From the NCBI RefSeq assembly GCF_000724085.1, contig NZ_CCDL010000001.1, positions 930,001-994,000 on the forward strand: a DNA stretch of 64,000 nt, in the 5' to 3' direction. The notes beneath the pieces were generated by a model, which saw only the letters and a program-made list of their open reading frames with translations, was not told the DNA's origin and did no database searches. Below, piece by piece: positions 34,063 through 41,193 of this stretch (its first letter is position 1; each line of letters opens with the position of its first letter). Source of the stretch: Oceanobacillus manasiensis (GTDB lineage: Bacteria; Bacillota; Bacilli; Bacillales; Amphibacillaceae). The position numbers and the translations under genes were made by a program.

Positions 34063-35070
34063 ATGAACGAGAAACTACTAGAAGTCAACCAGTTGAAAAA
34101 GCATTTTGATGTAGGAAAAGGAAAAGTTCTAAAAGCAGTTAATGATGTTTCCTTTTATGTGAAGCCCGGTGAAACCTTTGGATTAGTAGGAGAATCGGGT
34201 TGTGGGAAATCTACCATTGGTCGTACCATTTTGGGGCTTTACGATAAAACGGAAGGTAACGTGATTTATGATGGAAAAGATGTGCATAGCTTAACAGAAA
34301 AAGAAAAGTTTAATCTTTATCGTAAAATGCAGATGATTTTTCAAGATCCATATGCCTCCCTGAACCCTCGTTCTACTGTGCGTGAGGTAATCGGTGAACC
34401 AATGGAAGTGCATGGCTTATTCAAGTCCAAAAAGGAACAACTAGAGCGTGTATATGAATTGCTAGAGGAAGTGGGATTAAACCGAGACCATGCTAATCGT
34501 TATCCTCACGAATTTAGCGGAGGACAGCGCCAGCGGATTGGGATAGCCAGAGCCCTTGCTTTGGAACCAGAATTTATTATAGCGGATGAGCCGATTTCCG
34601 CGCTTGATGTATCTGTACAGGCACAGGTGGTCAATTTATTGAAAGAACTACAAGTGGAGAAGGGGCTGACCTTCCTATTTATCGCCCATGATCTTTCCAT
34701 GGTAAAGCAAATATCTGACAGGATTGGGGTAATGTATTTAGGTAACCTTGTGGAGCTTACTACAAGTGAGGCATTATATGAGGAGCCATTGCATCCATAT
34801 ACACAGGCACTTCTATCTGCCATCCCTATCCCTGACCCGGATATTGAGGAAAGTCGAGAGCGCATTATCCTTGAAGGGGAGTTACCTAGTCCGATTGACC
34901 CTCCGAGTGGCTGTGTTTTTCGTACAAGATGCCCTTTCGCAATGGAAGCGTGTGCTGAAGTAACCCCGATTTGGCAAGAAGTAGAAGAAGGGCATTACGT
35001 TGCCTGCCATCTATATAATAACGAAATAGAAGACAAGACACCGTTGAAAGACCCAGCTATACATCAGTAA
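34063..35070 (+). CDS. ykfD: Peptide ABC transporter ATPase YkfD
   Basis: 335 residues, OppF-type. Walker [10 protein letters not shown], signature FSGGQRQR, Walker [13 protein letters not shown] and the C-terminal [14 protein letters not shown] motif. It starts three bases after ykfC. It is the natural partner of DppD in the two-ATPase peptide importer. Confidence 0.95.
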
Positions 35071-36651: not shown

Positions 36652-37533
36652 ATGAATGAAGAAAACAAAGCTTCAAAAAACAAATGGAGCCGTATTTTCA
36701 AGAAAAAGTGGTTTTTCCCAGCAGTCTATCTGACAATTGCTGCCTTGCTTCTTTCCGTTGTCGTATGGTACCAAAACATGGATAACCAGATTCCTGATGC
36801 ACAGGAAGACCAGGAAAACTATGTTCCAACACCAAATGAAGAGGAAGCAGAGCCTGTTTTAGAACATCAAGAAGTTATTCAAATGCCATTAGCGGATCAA
36901 GAACAAGCAGAAATCGTAACTAAATTCTATGATTACAACGCAGATCAAGAAGATCAGGAAAATGCTTTGGTTCTATATAACAACCGTTATTACCAGAGTA
37001 CTGGTGTAGATATTGCATCAGCAAGTGGTGAAACATTTGATGTTGTTGCTGCACTAACTGGAACAATTGAGGAAGTAAAAGAAGATCCGCTTTTAGGTAA
37101 TGTTGTCGTAGTGTCACATGAGAATGATGTTAAGACATACTATGCAAGCCTTGAAAAGGTAAGTGTAAAAGCAGGGGCAGAAGTGAAACAAGGTGATCAA
37201 CTAGGAACTGCAGGAAAGAACTTGTTTGGTCAAGATAGCGGAACACACGTTTACTTTGAACTCAGAAAAGAAGATAAGCATGTGAACCCAGAAGACTTCT
37301 TTAATCAACCAGTAAGTAGTCTAGAGAGTGCTCTTGAAGAAGCGGTAGACAGCACTGAATCAGATGAAGCAACGGAATCATCTGAAGAAGAGGCTGTGGA
37401 AAATGAAGCTTCTGAAGAGAATGCCGATGATGAAGATAAGACTGAAGAAGAAGACGCGCCTGCTGATGAAGAGGAAGATGACGCATCAAACGAAGAATCC
37501 AATGATGCAACCGACTCATCTGAGAGTGCATAA
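36652..37533 (+). CDS. spoIIQ: Stage II sporulation protein Q
   Basis: Forespore membrane protein that zips with SpoIIIAH and recruits mother-cell complexes during engulfment. 293 residues: basic N-terminus, one membrane helix (about 21-41), and a LytM/M23 domain (about 110-225) with STGVDIASASGETFDVVAAL and GTHVYFELRKEDKHVNPEDF. The first zinc-binding His of M23 peptidases is Ser here, so the domain is probably inactive, as in B. subtilis. The last 65 residues are almost only Glu, Asp, Ser and Ala. SD GAGGTGAT. Confidence 0.93.
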   Translation: MNEENKASKNKWSRIFKKKWFFPAVYLTIAALLLSVVVWYQNMDNQIPDAQEDQENYVPTPNEEEAEPVLEHQEVIQMPLADQEQAEIVTKFYDYNADQEDQENALVLYNNRYYQSTGVDIASASGETFDVVAALTGTIEEVKEDPLLGNVVVVSHENDVKTYYASLEKVSVKAGAEVKQGDQLGTAGKNLFGQDSGTHVYFELRKEDKHVNPEDFFNQPVSSLESALEEAVDSTESDEATESSEEEAVENEASEENADDEDKTEEEDAPADEEEDDASNEESNDATDSSESA

Positions 37534-37544
37534 GAAAAGTAAGA

Positions 37545-37583
37545 AAGATCCTAGTACTTTAATAGAGTCTAGGGTCTTTTTTT
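37545..37583 (+). terminator. Terminator after spoIIQ
   Basis: AAGATCCTAG pairs with CTAGGGTCTT and leads into a T-run. Confidence 0.82.
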
Positions 37584-37778
37584 GTTGTTGACTAAGTTTT
37601 TATTTAAAAAAGAAAGTGATTATAATGATGCAAAATTTGTCGAACGATAGCTAATATTCTAGGAGATAAATGTGTTATTATAAGTATTAATAGAATTTCT
37701 TGCTGTTAATTAGCGAAAAAAATAGTAGTCTTCTTCTAAAATAAACGTAAAAGGATGGTAGAAAGGAGATTCCCTACT

Positions 37779-38792
37779 ATGGTTATGCCCTCAATATTTA
37801 TCTCAGATAAAGGAAAAGATAACCTATCACTAAGAGAACTTGTAGAAATACTTTATCAAGAACACCCGGAAGAAAGTGTAATAGAATTAACAAGGGAATA
37901 TTGCTTGCACTCAAATTCCAATGACATCCTCAAGAAGGGGATGGAGTTTCTCTATATGAATGGGTTTTATACAGACTTAGAGACCCTGATAGAGAAAAAC
38001 CATCATTCCCTCAACGCTTCGACCCGTAAGTGGGCATTAGTCTATCAACATGTTTTGGATAGAAGGCTAAAAAAATGCCTGCCCCATGAATCGCTCCAAA
38101 GAATAAAATGTATTGAGACAAACGACCCTGAGTTGAAATGTCTTGTGGAGTTCTTCAAGGTAACAACGTATTATGAGCTTAATCAATTCAGTAGATTAGG
38201 GAATTTTCTCGATATACAACAAGAATTGTTTGCGGGGGTTGAAGATAGACTATTGCTGTCTTTTTTCAAAATACGTTTAAACCAAATTCTGCTTACCTAT
38301 CATCTTACAAGAAATGAACTTATTATGGCTCGCAAATATGCATTTAGGGTCTTAAATCAAACCCAAAATCCAAGGACAATGGCGAGCATGCATATAAAAC
38401 TGGGTCTATCCTATACCTTTGATACATACTTACAGGGCATGTATCATCTTAACGAAGCGTTAAAGGTTGCAAAGCAATACGGATTGGAAAAAGTAGTGAA
38501 GCTTGTAGAACAACGAAATATTCCTTTTCTTTCAGCACACTTTAATCAAGTTGGGAATATATCTTCCCCAGATCCGAGTGAACAGGCACACATTGAAATT
38601 GCCAAAGGAAACACTCAAAAAGCAATTGAATTATTGCATGACCTACCTTTAGACAGTCCCTTTCAGCTATATTATCTTGGGAAAGCGAAACAAGATAAAG
38701 ATCTCCTTCTTCAATCCTATAATTTTTTTATCGAAAGACGAAGTGACTACTTCTTTAGTAAGTTACCACTTACGTTATTAAGAAAACTTTAA
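37779..38792 (+). CDS. AimR/Alo-like peptide receptor lacking most of the HTH
   Basis: 337 residues from ATG 37779; AAGGAGA (37763-37769) is the SD, while ATG 37755 has an SD touching it and an in-frame stop lies at 37737. The protein resembles AimR, the arbitrium lysis-lysogeny receptor of SPbeta-like phages. Shared positions include LTREYCL (SPbeta MKDYCL), a TPR-like body, EQAH near residue 267 followed by a helix with KAIELLHDL, and LYYLGKAKQDKD with a final KLPLTLLRKL block. AimR has a roughly 60-residue HTH in front; here only its last helix (about SLRELVEILYQE) remains. No phage genes surround it. Related non-phage systems (AloR-AloP) are reported in Paenibacillus. A candidate peptide gene follows at 38920. 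It may sense a peptide and bind protein rather than DNA, as Rap proteins do. Confidence 0.8.
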   Translation: MVMPSIFISDKGKDNLSLRELVEILYQEHPEESVIELTREYCLHSNSNDILKKGMEFLYMNGFYTDLETLIEKNHHSLNASTRKWALVYQHVLDRRLKKCLPHESLQRIKCIETNDPELKCLVEFFKVTTYYELNQFSRLGNFLDIQQELFAGVEDRLLLSFFKIRLNQILLTYHLTRNELIMARKYAFRVLNQTQNPRTMASMHIKLGLSYTFDTYLQGMYHLNEALKVAKQYGLEKVVKLVEQRNIPFLSAHFNQVGNISSPDPSEQAHIEIAKGNTQKAIELLHDLPLDSPFQLYYLGKAKQDKDLLLQSYNFFIERRSDYFFSKLPLTLLRKL

Positions 38793-38795
38793 GCC

Positions 38796-38814
38796 TGAGG
38801 GGGGCTGCCCCTCA
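38796..38814 (+). promoter_or_regulatory. GC-rich hairpin between receptor and peptide gene
   Basis: TGAGGGG (38796-38802) and CCCCTCA (38808-38814) pair around GGCTG, four bases after the receptor stop. No T-run follows. A second CCCCTCAC at 38829 could pair in its place. It may stabilise or process the mRNA and set the receptor-to-peptide ratio. Confidence 0.5.
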
Positions 38815-38919
38815 CCCACATTCTTTTACCCCTCACATCAGTCATCCATAGTGATTTTTATTTGTTTAAAAGGTTCAGCTTTTTCTTTTACTGCTAAAAT
38901 CCCTTAAGGAGGCAATAAA

Positions 38920-39072
38920 ATGAAAAAGTTAACTTCTTTTCTATTGATGGCAGTTTTAACGGTTCTGATTTCCTTGGTTTCTGGCACTTTATCTACAAAC
39001 ATCTCGATTTTGCTCGATCCTGGGCTTGGAGATATGGATGTATACGATCCTGGGTTAGGTGACATGGATTAA
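38920..39072 (+). CDS. Secreted pre-peptide with duplicated DPGLGDMD
   Basis: 50 residues. SD AAGGAGG (38906-38912) lies 7 bases before ATG 38920. The N-terminus MKKLTSFLLMAVLTVLISLV is a classic export signal, followed by SGTLSTNISILL and two identical 8-residue units DPGLGDMD separated by VY, the second being the C-terminus. The two DNA copies differ at three third-codon or synonymous positions (CTT/TTA, GGA/GGT, GAT/GAC), so the peptide unit appears selected. Layout (receptor, then exported pre-peptide with the signal at the C-terminus) matches AimP, Phr and AloP precursors; the acidic sequence differs from the known GMPRGA-like arbitrium peptides. Likely the cognate pheromone of the receptor upstream. 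Confidence 0.8.
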   Translation: MKKLTSFLLMAVLTVLISLVSGTLSTNISILLDPGLGDMDVYDPGLGDMD

Positions 39073-39560
39073 CATCTGTCTTCTGTAGGTAAAAAGAGAG
39101 AGATTCACATAGGAACTTCAACGGTTTTATGCTTTATCGGATAAAAGAAAAGCTGAGCCTTATTTTTAATGAAGTGATTAATTCTTCTCGATTTAGATAG
39201 TAAACAAACTCCCTTTTAGATCTCCTGAATAAATACTTCTCGTCCTACTTTTACAAAGATGCAATTTTAATCATAATCCCGCCATCTCCTTAATAAAATG
39301 TTACAAACCAAGCATTCAGTAATTTCTGAGGTGAGAGCTTGTGTGGCTTAACGTTACTTATGCGAAGTATCCTCGTTTTGTATGGAAAAATTACAGAATA
39401 TTAGGTCAATATTGAGTGGAAGGTGGTTAGGACCTTTCGCTTCAATATACATATTGATGAACAAACAACAGAATATCAGTACTCCAATGTGAGCCACTTA
39501 AGATGAACACCTTGTCTCGATAGACACCTCGGAATTAACCAACATAGGGAGGCGAACGGT
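39073..39560 (+). other. 490-base non-coding region with strong RNA hairpin
   Basis: No gene is seen. At 39409-39448 ATATTGA and GTGGAAGGT pair with ACCTTTCGC and TCAATAT (16 pairs, two G-U, one bulge) around GGTTAGG, giving a stable RNA hairpin without T-tract. A smaller TGTCT/AGACA hairpin lies near 39515. The region must also contain the spoIIID promoter (expected sigmaE type), which I could not place. It might hold a regulatory RNA, as AimX follows aimP in phage, but nothing proves this. Confidence 0.4.
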
Positions 39561-39845
39561 GTGCACGACTACATCAAAGACAGAACCATCAGGATAGGAA
39601 ATTATGTATTGGAGACAAAAAAGACTGTCCGCGTAATAGCAAAAGAATTTGGTGTTTCTAAGAGCACTGTCCATAAGGATTTGACAGAGCGCTTGCCACA
39701 AATTAATCCTGAACTTGCGTTAAAGGTAAAGGAAATTCTTGAATATCACAAAGCTATTAGACATCTACGTGGAGGGGAAGCAACTAGGAAAAAGTACAAG
39801 ATTGAACCACAGGTAAAAGAGACGGAACCAAAACCGGTAGGATAA
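39561..39845 (+). CDS. spoIIID: Sporulation transcriptional regulator SpoIIID
   Basis: 94 residues, GTG start at 39561 with AGGGAGGCG upstream. The helix-turn-helix RVIAKEFGVSKSTVHKDLTE occupies about residues 24-43, and the basic region IRHLRGGEATRKKYK is the second DNA contact. Mother-cell activator/repressor in the sigmaE-to-sigmaK stage. The order spoIIQ ... spoIIID-mbl is as in B. subtilis. Confidence 0.96.
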   Translation: MHDYIKDRTIRIGNYVLETKKTVRVIAKEFGVSKSTVHKDLTERLPQINPELALKVKEILEYHKAIRHLRGGEATRKKYKIEPQVKETEPKPVG

Positions 39846-40058
39846 GTGTAATTATTTTACTACGGCAAAATAATGTTGGAGGAGAAAACAGACCTAGAAA
39901 GGTTCGTTTTCTCCATATTTACGTTGGCAGTAAATTAGTAAATGTAGTAAAGACGTACTAAAAAAACATTAAAAGAAACAATTTTTTCCATAAAAATCAC
40001 ACAAAACCCCCATTTTTTTCTAATACTATGCAGTTAATTGTTGAACTTTGTGGTAAAA

Positions 40059-40141
40059 TATAATATTAGAAGTCCGTGCTCAAAAAGAGGATGAAAAAGG
40101 AACGATGTGTCCTTTTTACCGGACTCTTTGAGCAACCTCTT
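40059..40141 (+). promoter_or_regulatory. Promoter -10 and structured leader of mbl
   Basis: TATAAT at 40059-40064 (weak TTGTTG 15 bases upstream) puts the start of the RNA near 40071. From there GCTCAAAAAGAG (40078-40089) pairs with CTCTTTGAGC (40124-40133) and an inner AAAAAGGA pairs with TCCTTTTT. AGTCC (40071) can instead pair with GGACT (40121), and AAGAGG (40085) with CCTCTT (40136). Alternative folds suggest a regulated or protected leader. The 210 bases from the spoIIID stop to here hold nothing else. Confidence 0.45.
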
Positions 40142-40191
40142 GTAGGAATATGTAAAAATTGAATTAATTTATAGTAGGAGGATCTTGATTC

Positions 40192-41193
40192 ATGTTTTCT
40201 AGGGATATTGGAATTGACCTTGGAACTGCCAATGTTTTAATTCACGTAAAAGGAAAAGGTATCGTTTTAGACGAACCATCAGTTGTTGCAATGGACCGCT
40301 ATACTGGAAAGGTACTCGAAGTTGGCGAGGAAGCAAGGCGCATGGTTGGACGTACACCAGGAAACATTGAAGCCATCCGTCCATTAAAAGATGGAGTAAT
40401 TGCAGACTTTGATGTAACAGAAGCAATGTTAAAGCATTTCATAAATAAAATTAGTGTTAAAGGGCTCCTTTCAAAGCCAAGGATGCTAATTTGCTGCCCG
40501 ACCAACATTACAAAGGTAGAACAAAAGGCAATTAAAGAAGCAGCAGAGAAATCTGGTGGGAAAAAGGTTTACCTTGAAGAAGAGCCAAAAGTAGCTGCAA
40601 TTGGTGCAGGAATGGATATATTCCAACCAAGCGGTAACATGGTCGTTGATATTGGTGGTGGAACGACAGATGTTGCTGTTTTGTCCATGGGGGATATTGT
40701 TACCTCGGAATCCATTAAAATGGCTGGGGATAAATTCGATGTCGAAATTCTTCAATACATAAAGAAGCAGTATAAGCTTCTGATTGGAGAACGCACAGCA
40801 GAGGATATTAAAATAAATGTTGCCACAGTTTTCAGAGATTCCCGAAATGAGGAAATGGAAATTCGTGGCCGTGATATGGTTTCCGGTTTACCGAGAACGA
40901 TTACCGTTTATTCTGCTGAAATCGAAGCAGCATTACGCGAATCTGTTTTCCTTATAGTACAGGCTGCGAAATCTGTTTTAGAAAAAACACCGCCTGAACT
41001 ATCTGCTGATATTATTGACAGAGGTGTCATTTTAACAGGTGGCGGAGCTATGATACATGGTATAGACCAGCTACTTGCTGAAGAATTGAAGGTTCCAGTC
41101 TTAGTAGCAGAGGAACCAATGCACTGTGTAGCAAAAGGCACAGGTATTATGCTAGAAAATATTGATAAACTTGAAAGAAAAAAGGTCGTTTAA
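40192..41193 (+). CDS. mbl: MreB-like cell-shape protein Mbl
   Basis: 333 residues, actin fold. Phosphate-1 loop DIGLGTAN-type sequence DIGIDLGTANVLIHV, ATP-binding DIGGGTTDVAVLSMG near 160 and LTGGGAMIHGIDQLL near 287 are present. Guides lateral wall elongation. It follows spoIIID and precedes flhO, which distinguishes Mbl from MreB and MreBH. SD AGGAGG. Confidence 0.95.
   Translation: MFSRDIGIDLGTANVLIHVKGKGIVLDEPSVVAMDRYTGKVLEVGEEARRMVGRTPGNIEAIRPLKDGVIADFDVTEAMLKHFINKISVKGLLSKPRMLICCPTNITKVEQKAIKEAAEKSGGKKVYLEEEPKVAAIGAGMDIFQPSGNMVVDIGGGTTDVAVLSMGDIVTSESIKMAGDKFDVEILQYIKKQYKLLIGERTAEDIKINVATVFRDSRNEEMEIRGRDMVSGLPRTITVYSAEIEAALRESVFLIVQAAKSVLEKTPPELSADIIDRGVILTGGGAMIHGIDQLLAEELKVPVLVAEEPMHCVAKGTGIMLENIDKLERKKVV

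Follow-up and report, generated by a model that had tools for sequence, protein, structure and literature searches.

The window analysed here comprises 64,000 nucleotides of the 3.8 Mb genome of Oceanobacillus manasiensis, and the features of the locus under study are listed in Table 1. With names checked against NCBIfam, the order of genes is spoIID, spoIIQ, receptor, propeptide, spoIIID and an MreB-family gene at 40192-41193. The first-pass annotation had described a 337-residue AimR-like protein followed 127 bases later by a 50-residue pre-peptide with its own Shine-Dalgarno sequence, and both the coordinates and the frames proved correct. Upstream of its ATG the receptor frame is open for just 13 further codons, with an alternative ATG at 37755. 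The closest named relative at the locus is that of Oceanobacillus jordanicus (L056), at 84% identity.

Two further features of the region were observed. A 29-nt inverted repeat at 38870-38898 and 39133-39161 brackets the whole peptide gene, and both arms are kept in the closest relative. The RNA fold around the peptide gene and the repeat was unremarkable (z -1.5, 10 of 100 shuffles being equally good), and no Rfam match at gathering score was found over 37000-40200. Just before spoIID lies an Opp/Dpp-type peptide-import ATPase (34063-35070), with an ATPase 78-84% identical to it in seven other loci; it is a possible route for re-import of a peptide, or may serve only cell-wall peptide recycling.

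Table 1. Features of the spoIIQ-spoIIID locus, in window coordinates.
Feature	Position	Strand	Evidence
spoIIQ, upstream flank	36652..37533	+	NF053738, 316 bits; synteny
Spo0A box ahead of the receptor gene, TGTCGAA with conserved CGA extension	37638..37647	+	sole match of TGTCGAACGA in the window
Extended -10-like site TGTTATTAT, putative receptor promoter	37673..37681	+	aligned across relatives; pattern matched in the window
Receptor ribosome-binding site AAAGGAG	37762..37768	+	direct reading; same in closest relative
Receptor gene (ATG to stop, 337 aa), AimR-family TPR protein without HTH and without C-terminal dimerisation helix	37779..38792	+	profile, fold, alignment, dN/dS
Propeptide ribosome-binding site AAGGAGG	38906..38912	+	direct reading; identical in closest relative
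Propeptide gene (ATG to stop, 50 aa), two DPGLGDMD units behind a signal-like N terminus	38920..39072	+	
DPGLGDMD unit 1	39016..39039	+	3 codons differ from unit 2, all synonymous
DPGLGDMD unit 2, C-terminal	39046..39069	+	sole match of the coding pattern plus stop in the whole genome (G000)
spoIIID, downstream flank	39561..39845	+	TIGR02844, 142 bits; synteny

A profile built from 23 receptors was run on 154 genomes of the family, and a relative of the receptor was found in 122 of them and in 39 of 46 genera. In an order-wide sample the profile matched 58 of 299 genomes, with strong matches (E < 1e-60) confined to families f1, f2, f7 and f36. The proposal of a chromosomal receptor with its own secreted-type peptide between spoIIQ and spoIIID was borne out in that most relatives examined keep this site: among the best 80 named loci of 115 relatives, 61 have spoIIQ upstream and spoIIID downstream, three have spoIIQ only, one has spoIIID only and 15 lie elsewhere. 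The locus counts given below refer to 140 distinct receptors (160 rows less 20 identical ones), of which 89 are at the spoIIQ/spoIIID site and 23 next to argS; this is a chosen set made up of the nearest genomes, the best 80 named loci and selected regions, and is not a random draw. Carriage by a temperate phage was not found, the locus being a syntenic chromosomal site. The phage collection gave 12 matching records with 22.5-25.1% identity to the receptor, three plasmid records matched with 21.9-25.7% identity, and patterns made from the family of the window receptor matched nothing in viral contigs.

The 23 argS-site receptors form a second AimR group, just ahead of a YwiB-like gene and argS, and none of them is followed by a peptide gene (0/23). 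They may listen to the peptide of the spoIIQ site. Loci L049 and L111 belong to this group, and L141 and L144 in it carry three receptor genes in tandem. One candidate peptide, at the argS locus L046, was rejected, being a 27-residue stretch without leader or octapeptide. In family f36 the receptor is at the spoIIQ-spoIIID site in all five genomes examined, without an octapeptide gene, and the f36 loci L143 and L146 have a different small open reading frame with a hydrophobic start. Receptors away from spoIIQ in f7 (L051, L157-L159, L180) and f36 (L149, L152, L154) have related, differing peptides, among them DPGDPGMG, DPGDGGIG and DPYIDGMG. Genome G006 has two receptors (L027, L028, L187, L188): the copy between spoIIQ and spoIIID has no peptide gene, and the copy elsewhere is followed by a leadered peptide gene, with another open frame 493 nt farther that has the same DPGYGDVD end.

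Profile, sequence and fold all place the window receptor in the AimR protein family. The profile and fold comparison that the first-pass annotation had suggested gave strong matches, namely to Pfam PF22871 (AimR; E 5.8e-80, 269.1 bits, cut-off 26.7) and to AimR structures at Z of about 31. It also matched NCBIfam NF038310 (E 1.4e-59, 202 bits, cut-off 70), phrog_1728 of PHROGs (E 3.7e-54) and, by sequence, the AimR chains of the PDB (E 7.7e-13). The AlphaFold2 model has a mean pLDDT of 91.9, and its top 16 Foldseek matches are all AimR. In VIA-align 13 AimR entries reached Z 29.9-32.0 with 316-330 residues aligned, against at most 21.6 for Rap and 16.6 for NprR. The receptor is under purifying selection, with dN/dS of 0.061 between the window and O. 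jordanicus copies and 0.04-0.17 in all nine pairs compared. One of the nine is a peptide-less Oceanobacillus pair (dN/dS 0.05), so that a receptor can be useful without a signal of its own. A quick IQ-TREE of 142 rows, with receptor starts taken as first Met or open frame, split 136 rows including the window receptor from six including two phage AimR (SH-aLRT 99, midpoint root, with a long-branch warning). In one clade (SH-aLRT 99) 84 of the 86 rows are spoIIQ/spoIIID-site receptors. L053, within the six-row group of phage AimR, has no evident HTH either.

In SPbeta AimR the HTH occupies residues 1-59, with DNA contacts N30, N32 and Y35, and the protein dimerises via its last helix through L380, L383, L384 and L386 (PMC6458997). 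The trimmed structural alignments of the window model begin at AimR residue 33-45 and run through 366-374 of 386. In the alignment the window receptor has no counterparts of N30, N32 and Y35 and, ending at AimR position 374, none of the last 12 residues including the dimer residues L380-L384. Since the frame extends for so few codons upstream, an HTH does not fit before the receptor. The same holds widely: in 84 of the 89 distinct site receptors the stretch ahead of the place of AimR residue 46 is shorter than 40 residues (median 20, AimR 45), lengths that are upper bounds because starts were taken as first Met or open frame, and in the remaining five the open frame is longer, with room for additional N-terminal sequence. 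The description of the receptor as AimR-like accordingly stands as to family and falls as to function as an AimR transcription factor. With both the HTH and the C-terminal dimer helix missing, a gene switch of the aimX kind is unlikely, and it is rather by holding a protein partner that the receptor would act.

The peptide-contacting residues gave a mixed picture, in which single positions are tentative as the mapping is a sequence alignment at about 20-25% identity. E268 and D323, which match AimR E300 and D360, are present in all 62 of the peptide-bearing site receptors. N202, N206 and T236, by which AimR anchors its peptide, are not kept, which counts against the reading preferred below, and AimR R228 aligns with R199 of the window receptor, a position that is R in just 13 of the 62. 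An AlphaFold2 run of one receptor and leaderless peptide as a single chain (L169, stop TAA read as Gly) gave a confident receptor with pLDDT 36 for the last block, so the docking was not confident.

The arrangement that marks an RRNPP(A) pair, in which a small propeptide with a signal sequence comes after a TPR receptor, was found at the locus, the signal being judged by hydropathy. The suggested search of relatives at spoIIQ-spoIIID showed that most keep a conserved peptide gene of the DPxxG type: it follows 66 of the 89 distinct site receptors, 62 with a ribosome site and four leaderless ones in Gracilibacillus that emerge when a ribosome site is not required, and is not recognisable at 23. 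In the named set alone it is present at 52 of 65 site loci. An open reading frame with ribosome site, ending in DPxxG and 2-4 further residues no more than 500 nt downstream, was found at 49 of the 89 site loci, and the same scan gave 0/89 on the antisense strand, 0/23 at the argS paralogues and 0.01 per 89 in shuffled sequence. A motif-free scan for a ribosome site and a hydrophobic leader in the first 35 loci gave matches in 20, all of which have at least one DP-G-type or DPDPPVG-type end; two of the 25 matches have neither. Among 61 octapeptides D, P and G were imposed by the search motif and positions 6-8 were free; 49 have D or E at position 6, 55 have I, L, V or M at position 7 and 56 have D, G or F at position 8.

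Twelve distinct propeptides contain several units, from 2 to 14 each. Compared with the C-terminal unit, the other units differ by 156 synonymous and six nonsynonymous codon differences, the latter being four in L108, one in L117 and one in L123, and in nine of the 12, the window included, all differences are synonymous. Units were counted at 5/8 identities, which omits NPGFGEMI (L022), DPGRVGIL (L130) and the interleaved units of L057. That the codon differences are almost all synonymous strongly indicates that selection acts on the octapeptide itself as the product. The propeptides of L117, L108 and L057 have 9 to 14 tandem octapeptide units, and in L057 DPWLGELD units alternate with DPEAGAMG-like ones. 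Orphan peptide genes in trans were searched for with a one-form pattern in 19 genomes. In 14 of them a site receptor has no adjacent peptide and the examined loci include no peptide-bearing copy; 13 of these 14 gave no match. The remaining match, L186, is a 28-codon open stretch whose sole ATG leaves 15 residues and no leader, and was taken as chance.

All 13 Gracilibacillus site loci (L163, L165, L166, L168-L176 and L047) have a short open frame that ends in DPD[YF]GD[IV]G and lacks a hydrophobic leader. For the PrgX-TraA-ComR-Rgg group, leaderless pheromones have been described as a possibility (PMC12700828). With the ligand kept and the leader absent, either the export has changed or the signal has become internal, and the missing leader counts against simple secretion in that genus.

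The alignment of the upstream regions of the relatives shows a conserved TTTGTCGAACGAT, in which TGTCGAA is the Spo0A core motif (PMC3485338). Searched for on the same strand within 330 nt upstream, perfect TGTCGAA is present ahead of 66 of the 89 distinct site receptors, against about 2/89 in shuffled sequence, and absent from 23. By the ribosome-site rule these are 49 of 62 peptide-bearing receptors (shuffled mean 1.4) and 17 of 27 peptide-less ones (0.6). Upstream of other receptors it was found in 3/23 at argS and 1/28 elsewhere, and for the neighbouring genes of the same loci in 0/85 for spoIIID, 1/85 for spoIID and 5/84 for mbl; it also occurs upstream of spoIIQ in 20/87 loci, which, like the 23 site receptors without a perfect box, counts against the reading preferred below. 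When TGACGAACGA is included (TG[TA]CGAACGA variants), a box is present at 78 loci. An extended -10-like site lies 28, 29 or 39 nt past the box in 56 of these, at other distances in 13 and was not found in nine; the main spacings, 28/29 versus 39, are about one helical turn apart. A scan of the region for sigma-70 promoters gave seven promoter-like sites against 7.1 expected. The 0A box stands in promoter position, as for members of the Spo0A regulon; its place upstream of the -10 suggests activation, and the receptor is probably under Spo0A control. A role in late sporulation had earlier been drawn from the neighbouring genes; the box of the receptor points to entry into sporulation instead.

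SpoIIID is present in 147 of the 154 family genomes, including all 122 with the receptor; 25 of the 147 lack the receptor, as do 7/7 SpoIIID-negative genomes. The association has a Fisher p of 9e-6, which is not corrected for kinship, and is phylogenetically weak since the SpoIIID-negative genomes represent three genera only. RapH_N was found in 13 of the 154 genomes (12 above cut-off), ten of them in genus g15, from which the tree includes two receptors, both on a very long branch and without a peptide. PF18801 (RapH_N) has no match in the window's genome, and the Pfam scan of the receptor gave AimR only. A Spo0B-type domain occurs in that genome and shows only that a phosphorelay is possible. 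NprR is listed for Virgibacillus (PMC9765709).

Taken together, a Spo0A-controlled, Rap-like pair of a protein-binding pheromone receptor and its pheromone, belonging to the arbitrium clan and working unlike phage arbitrium, is the reading that is preferred here, with a little better than even confidence. Rising Spo0A~P would bind the 0A box at 37638 and switch on the receptor gene from the extended -10 promoter; box, spacing and conservation are observed, and the regulation is what they suggest. The signal sequence would direct export of the propeptide, and cleavage would yield an octapeptide, mostly of the form DPxxG[DE]x[DGF] and in the window the twice encoded DPGLGDMD, which would report cell density. 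Re-imported via an oligopeptide permease, it may bind the TPR groove in which E268 and D323 are kept. The most likely partner is a protein of the Spo0A pathway or close to it, and by altering the hold of the receptor on this protein the peptide would exert a density-dependent feedback on the commitment to sporulation. The peptide-less site receptors, the 25 SpoIIID-positive genomes that lack a receptor and the unconfident docking weigh against this reading.

Spo0A governs biofilm and competence-like states too. The module may accordingly sense its peptide with an output other than sporulation, the partner of the receptor belonging to such states; this is unlikely, though it deserves to be kept in view, for the box tells only that the gene may follow Spo0A and the 25 SpoIIID-positive genomes without a receptor live without it, while the stable residence of the receptor between spoIIQ and spoIIID and its absence from every SpoIIID-negative genome speak for a link with sporulation. 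That the receptor is still a DNA-binding regulator, reaching spoIIID or the receptor promoter by a different surface or by way of a partner, was judged improbable. The adjoining spoIIID would be an obvious target, as receptors of the superfamily with a DNA-binding domain are held to control adjacent genes (PMC10075063), and in five of the 89 site receptors the open frame could accommodate additional N-terminal residues; against this stand the short N termini of the other 84 and the missing counterparts of N30, N32 and Y35 in the window.

Very improbable is the reading in which a host receptor eavesdrops on, or soaks up, the arbitrium peptides of phages, as was proposed for chromosomal AimR genes without propeptides (PMC9765709). 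It would fit the 23 peptide-less argS-site paralogues, the 23 peptide-less spoIIQ/spoIIID-site receptors and the occurrence of DPG, which is widespread in peptides of the AimR subfamily (PMC12700828). It does not fit the peptide of its own that accompanies most site receptors, the empty search of viral contigs and the low identity of the 12 phage records. A wider proposal, of less than even confidence, is that after losing its DNA-binding domain a receptor of the arbitrium clan was fixed at spoIIQ-spoIIID in the ancestors of at least two families and serves as a Spo0A-controlled sporulation pheromone system where Rap is missing, a second and independent invention of Rap-Phr, the Gracilibacillus pheromone having later become leaderless and either exported otherwise or a private intracellular signal.

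If true, the preferred reading would provide a candidate sporulation pheromone system for a large group of halophilic spore formers, among them Oceanobacillus, Virgibacillus, Lentibacillus, Ornithinibacillus and Gracilibacillus, and for this system the ligand sequence, the residues of the receptor and the site in the promoter can each be specified. It would also revise the published view of chromosomal AimR genes as mostly eavesdroppers on phages, as well as the claim that the receptor superfamily has no HTH-less members besides Rap, and it has a bearing on whether arbitrium came to phages from the dormancy control of bacteria.

With AimR-AimP of SPbeta-type phages the locus shares the receptor family, the TPR fold, the equivalents of E300 and D360, and a layout in which the receptor gene precedes that of a secreted propeptide carrying the mature peptide at its C terminus. 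It differs in that the window receptor is chromosomal, has a Spo0A box and lacks both HTH and C-terminal dimer helix, and in that the peptide is an octapeptide DPxxG.., often repeated, instead of the xxxRGA of phages. In Rap-Phr of B. subtilis, too, a TPR receptor without HTH precedes the gene of a secreted peptide in a sporulation context, the likeness in mechanism being by analogy only, but Rap is of another clan, and the window receptor has no RapH_N match and a lower fold score against Rap than against AimR. Rap were stated to be the only RRNPPA members without HTH (PMC9765709), and the one further HTH-less subfamily described is likewise of the Rap clan (PMC12700828). As the known HTH-less members are all of the Rap clan, the window-type receptor would have lost its HTH independently, within the AimR clan.

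AloR-AloP and subfamily 08 of Paenibacillaceae are also non-phage systems of the same structural clan C, and the DPG motif is common to the peptides of subfamily 08 and AimR (PMC12700828). All Alo receptors of P. polymyxa, however, have an HTH (PMC7425212), and the spoIIQ-spoIIID site is not among the published descriptions of these systems in the text available. AimR-like genes outside prophages are in print, with Virgibacillus listed as having AimR (PMC9765709), as are those of subfamily 21 of Alkalihalobacilli (PMC12700828). Chromosomal AimR homologues were mostly called propeptide-less eavesdroppers, a propeptide being given for 11% (PMC9765709). Neither for these homologues nor for subfamily 21 does the available text of the two papers describe a missing HTH, a place between spoIIQ and spoIIID, repeats of DPxxG or boxes for Spo0A, and no text on HTH-less AimR relatives at spoIIQ-spoIIID, or on their repeats or boxes, was found in the open-licence literature, whose supplementary tables may list individual pairs. 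Chromosomal AimR homologues are known already; what is new here is the perfect Spo0A core (TGTCGAA) ahead of 66 of the 89 site receptors.
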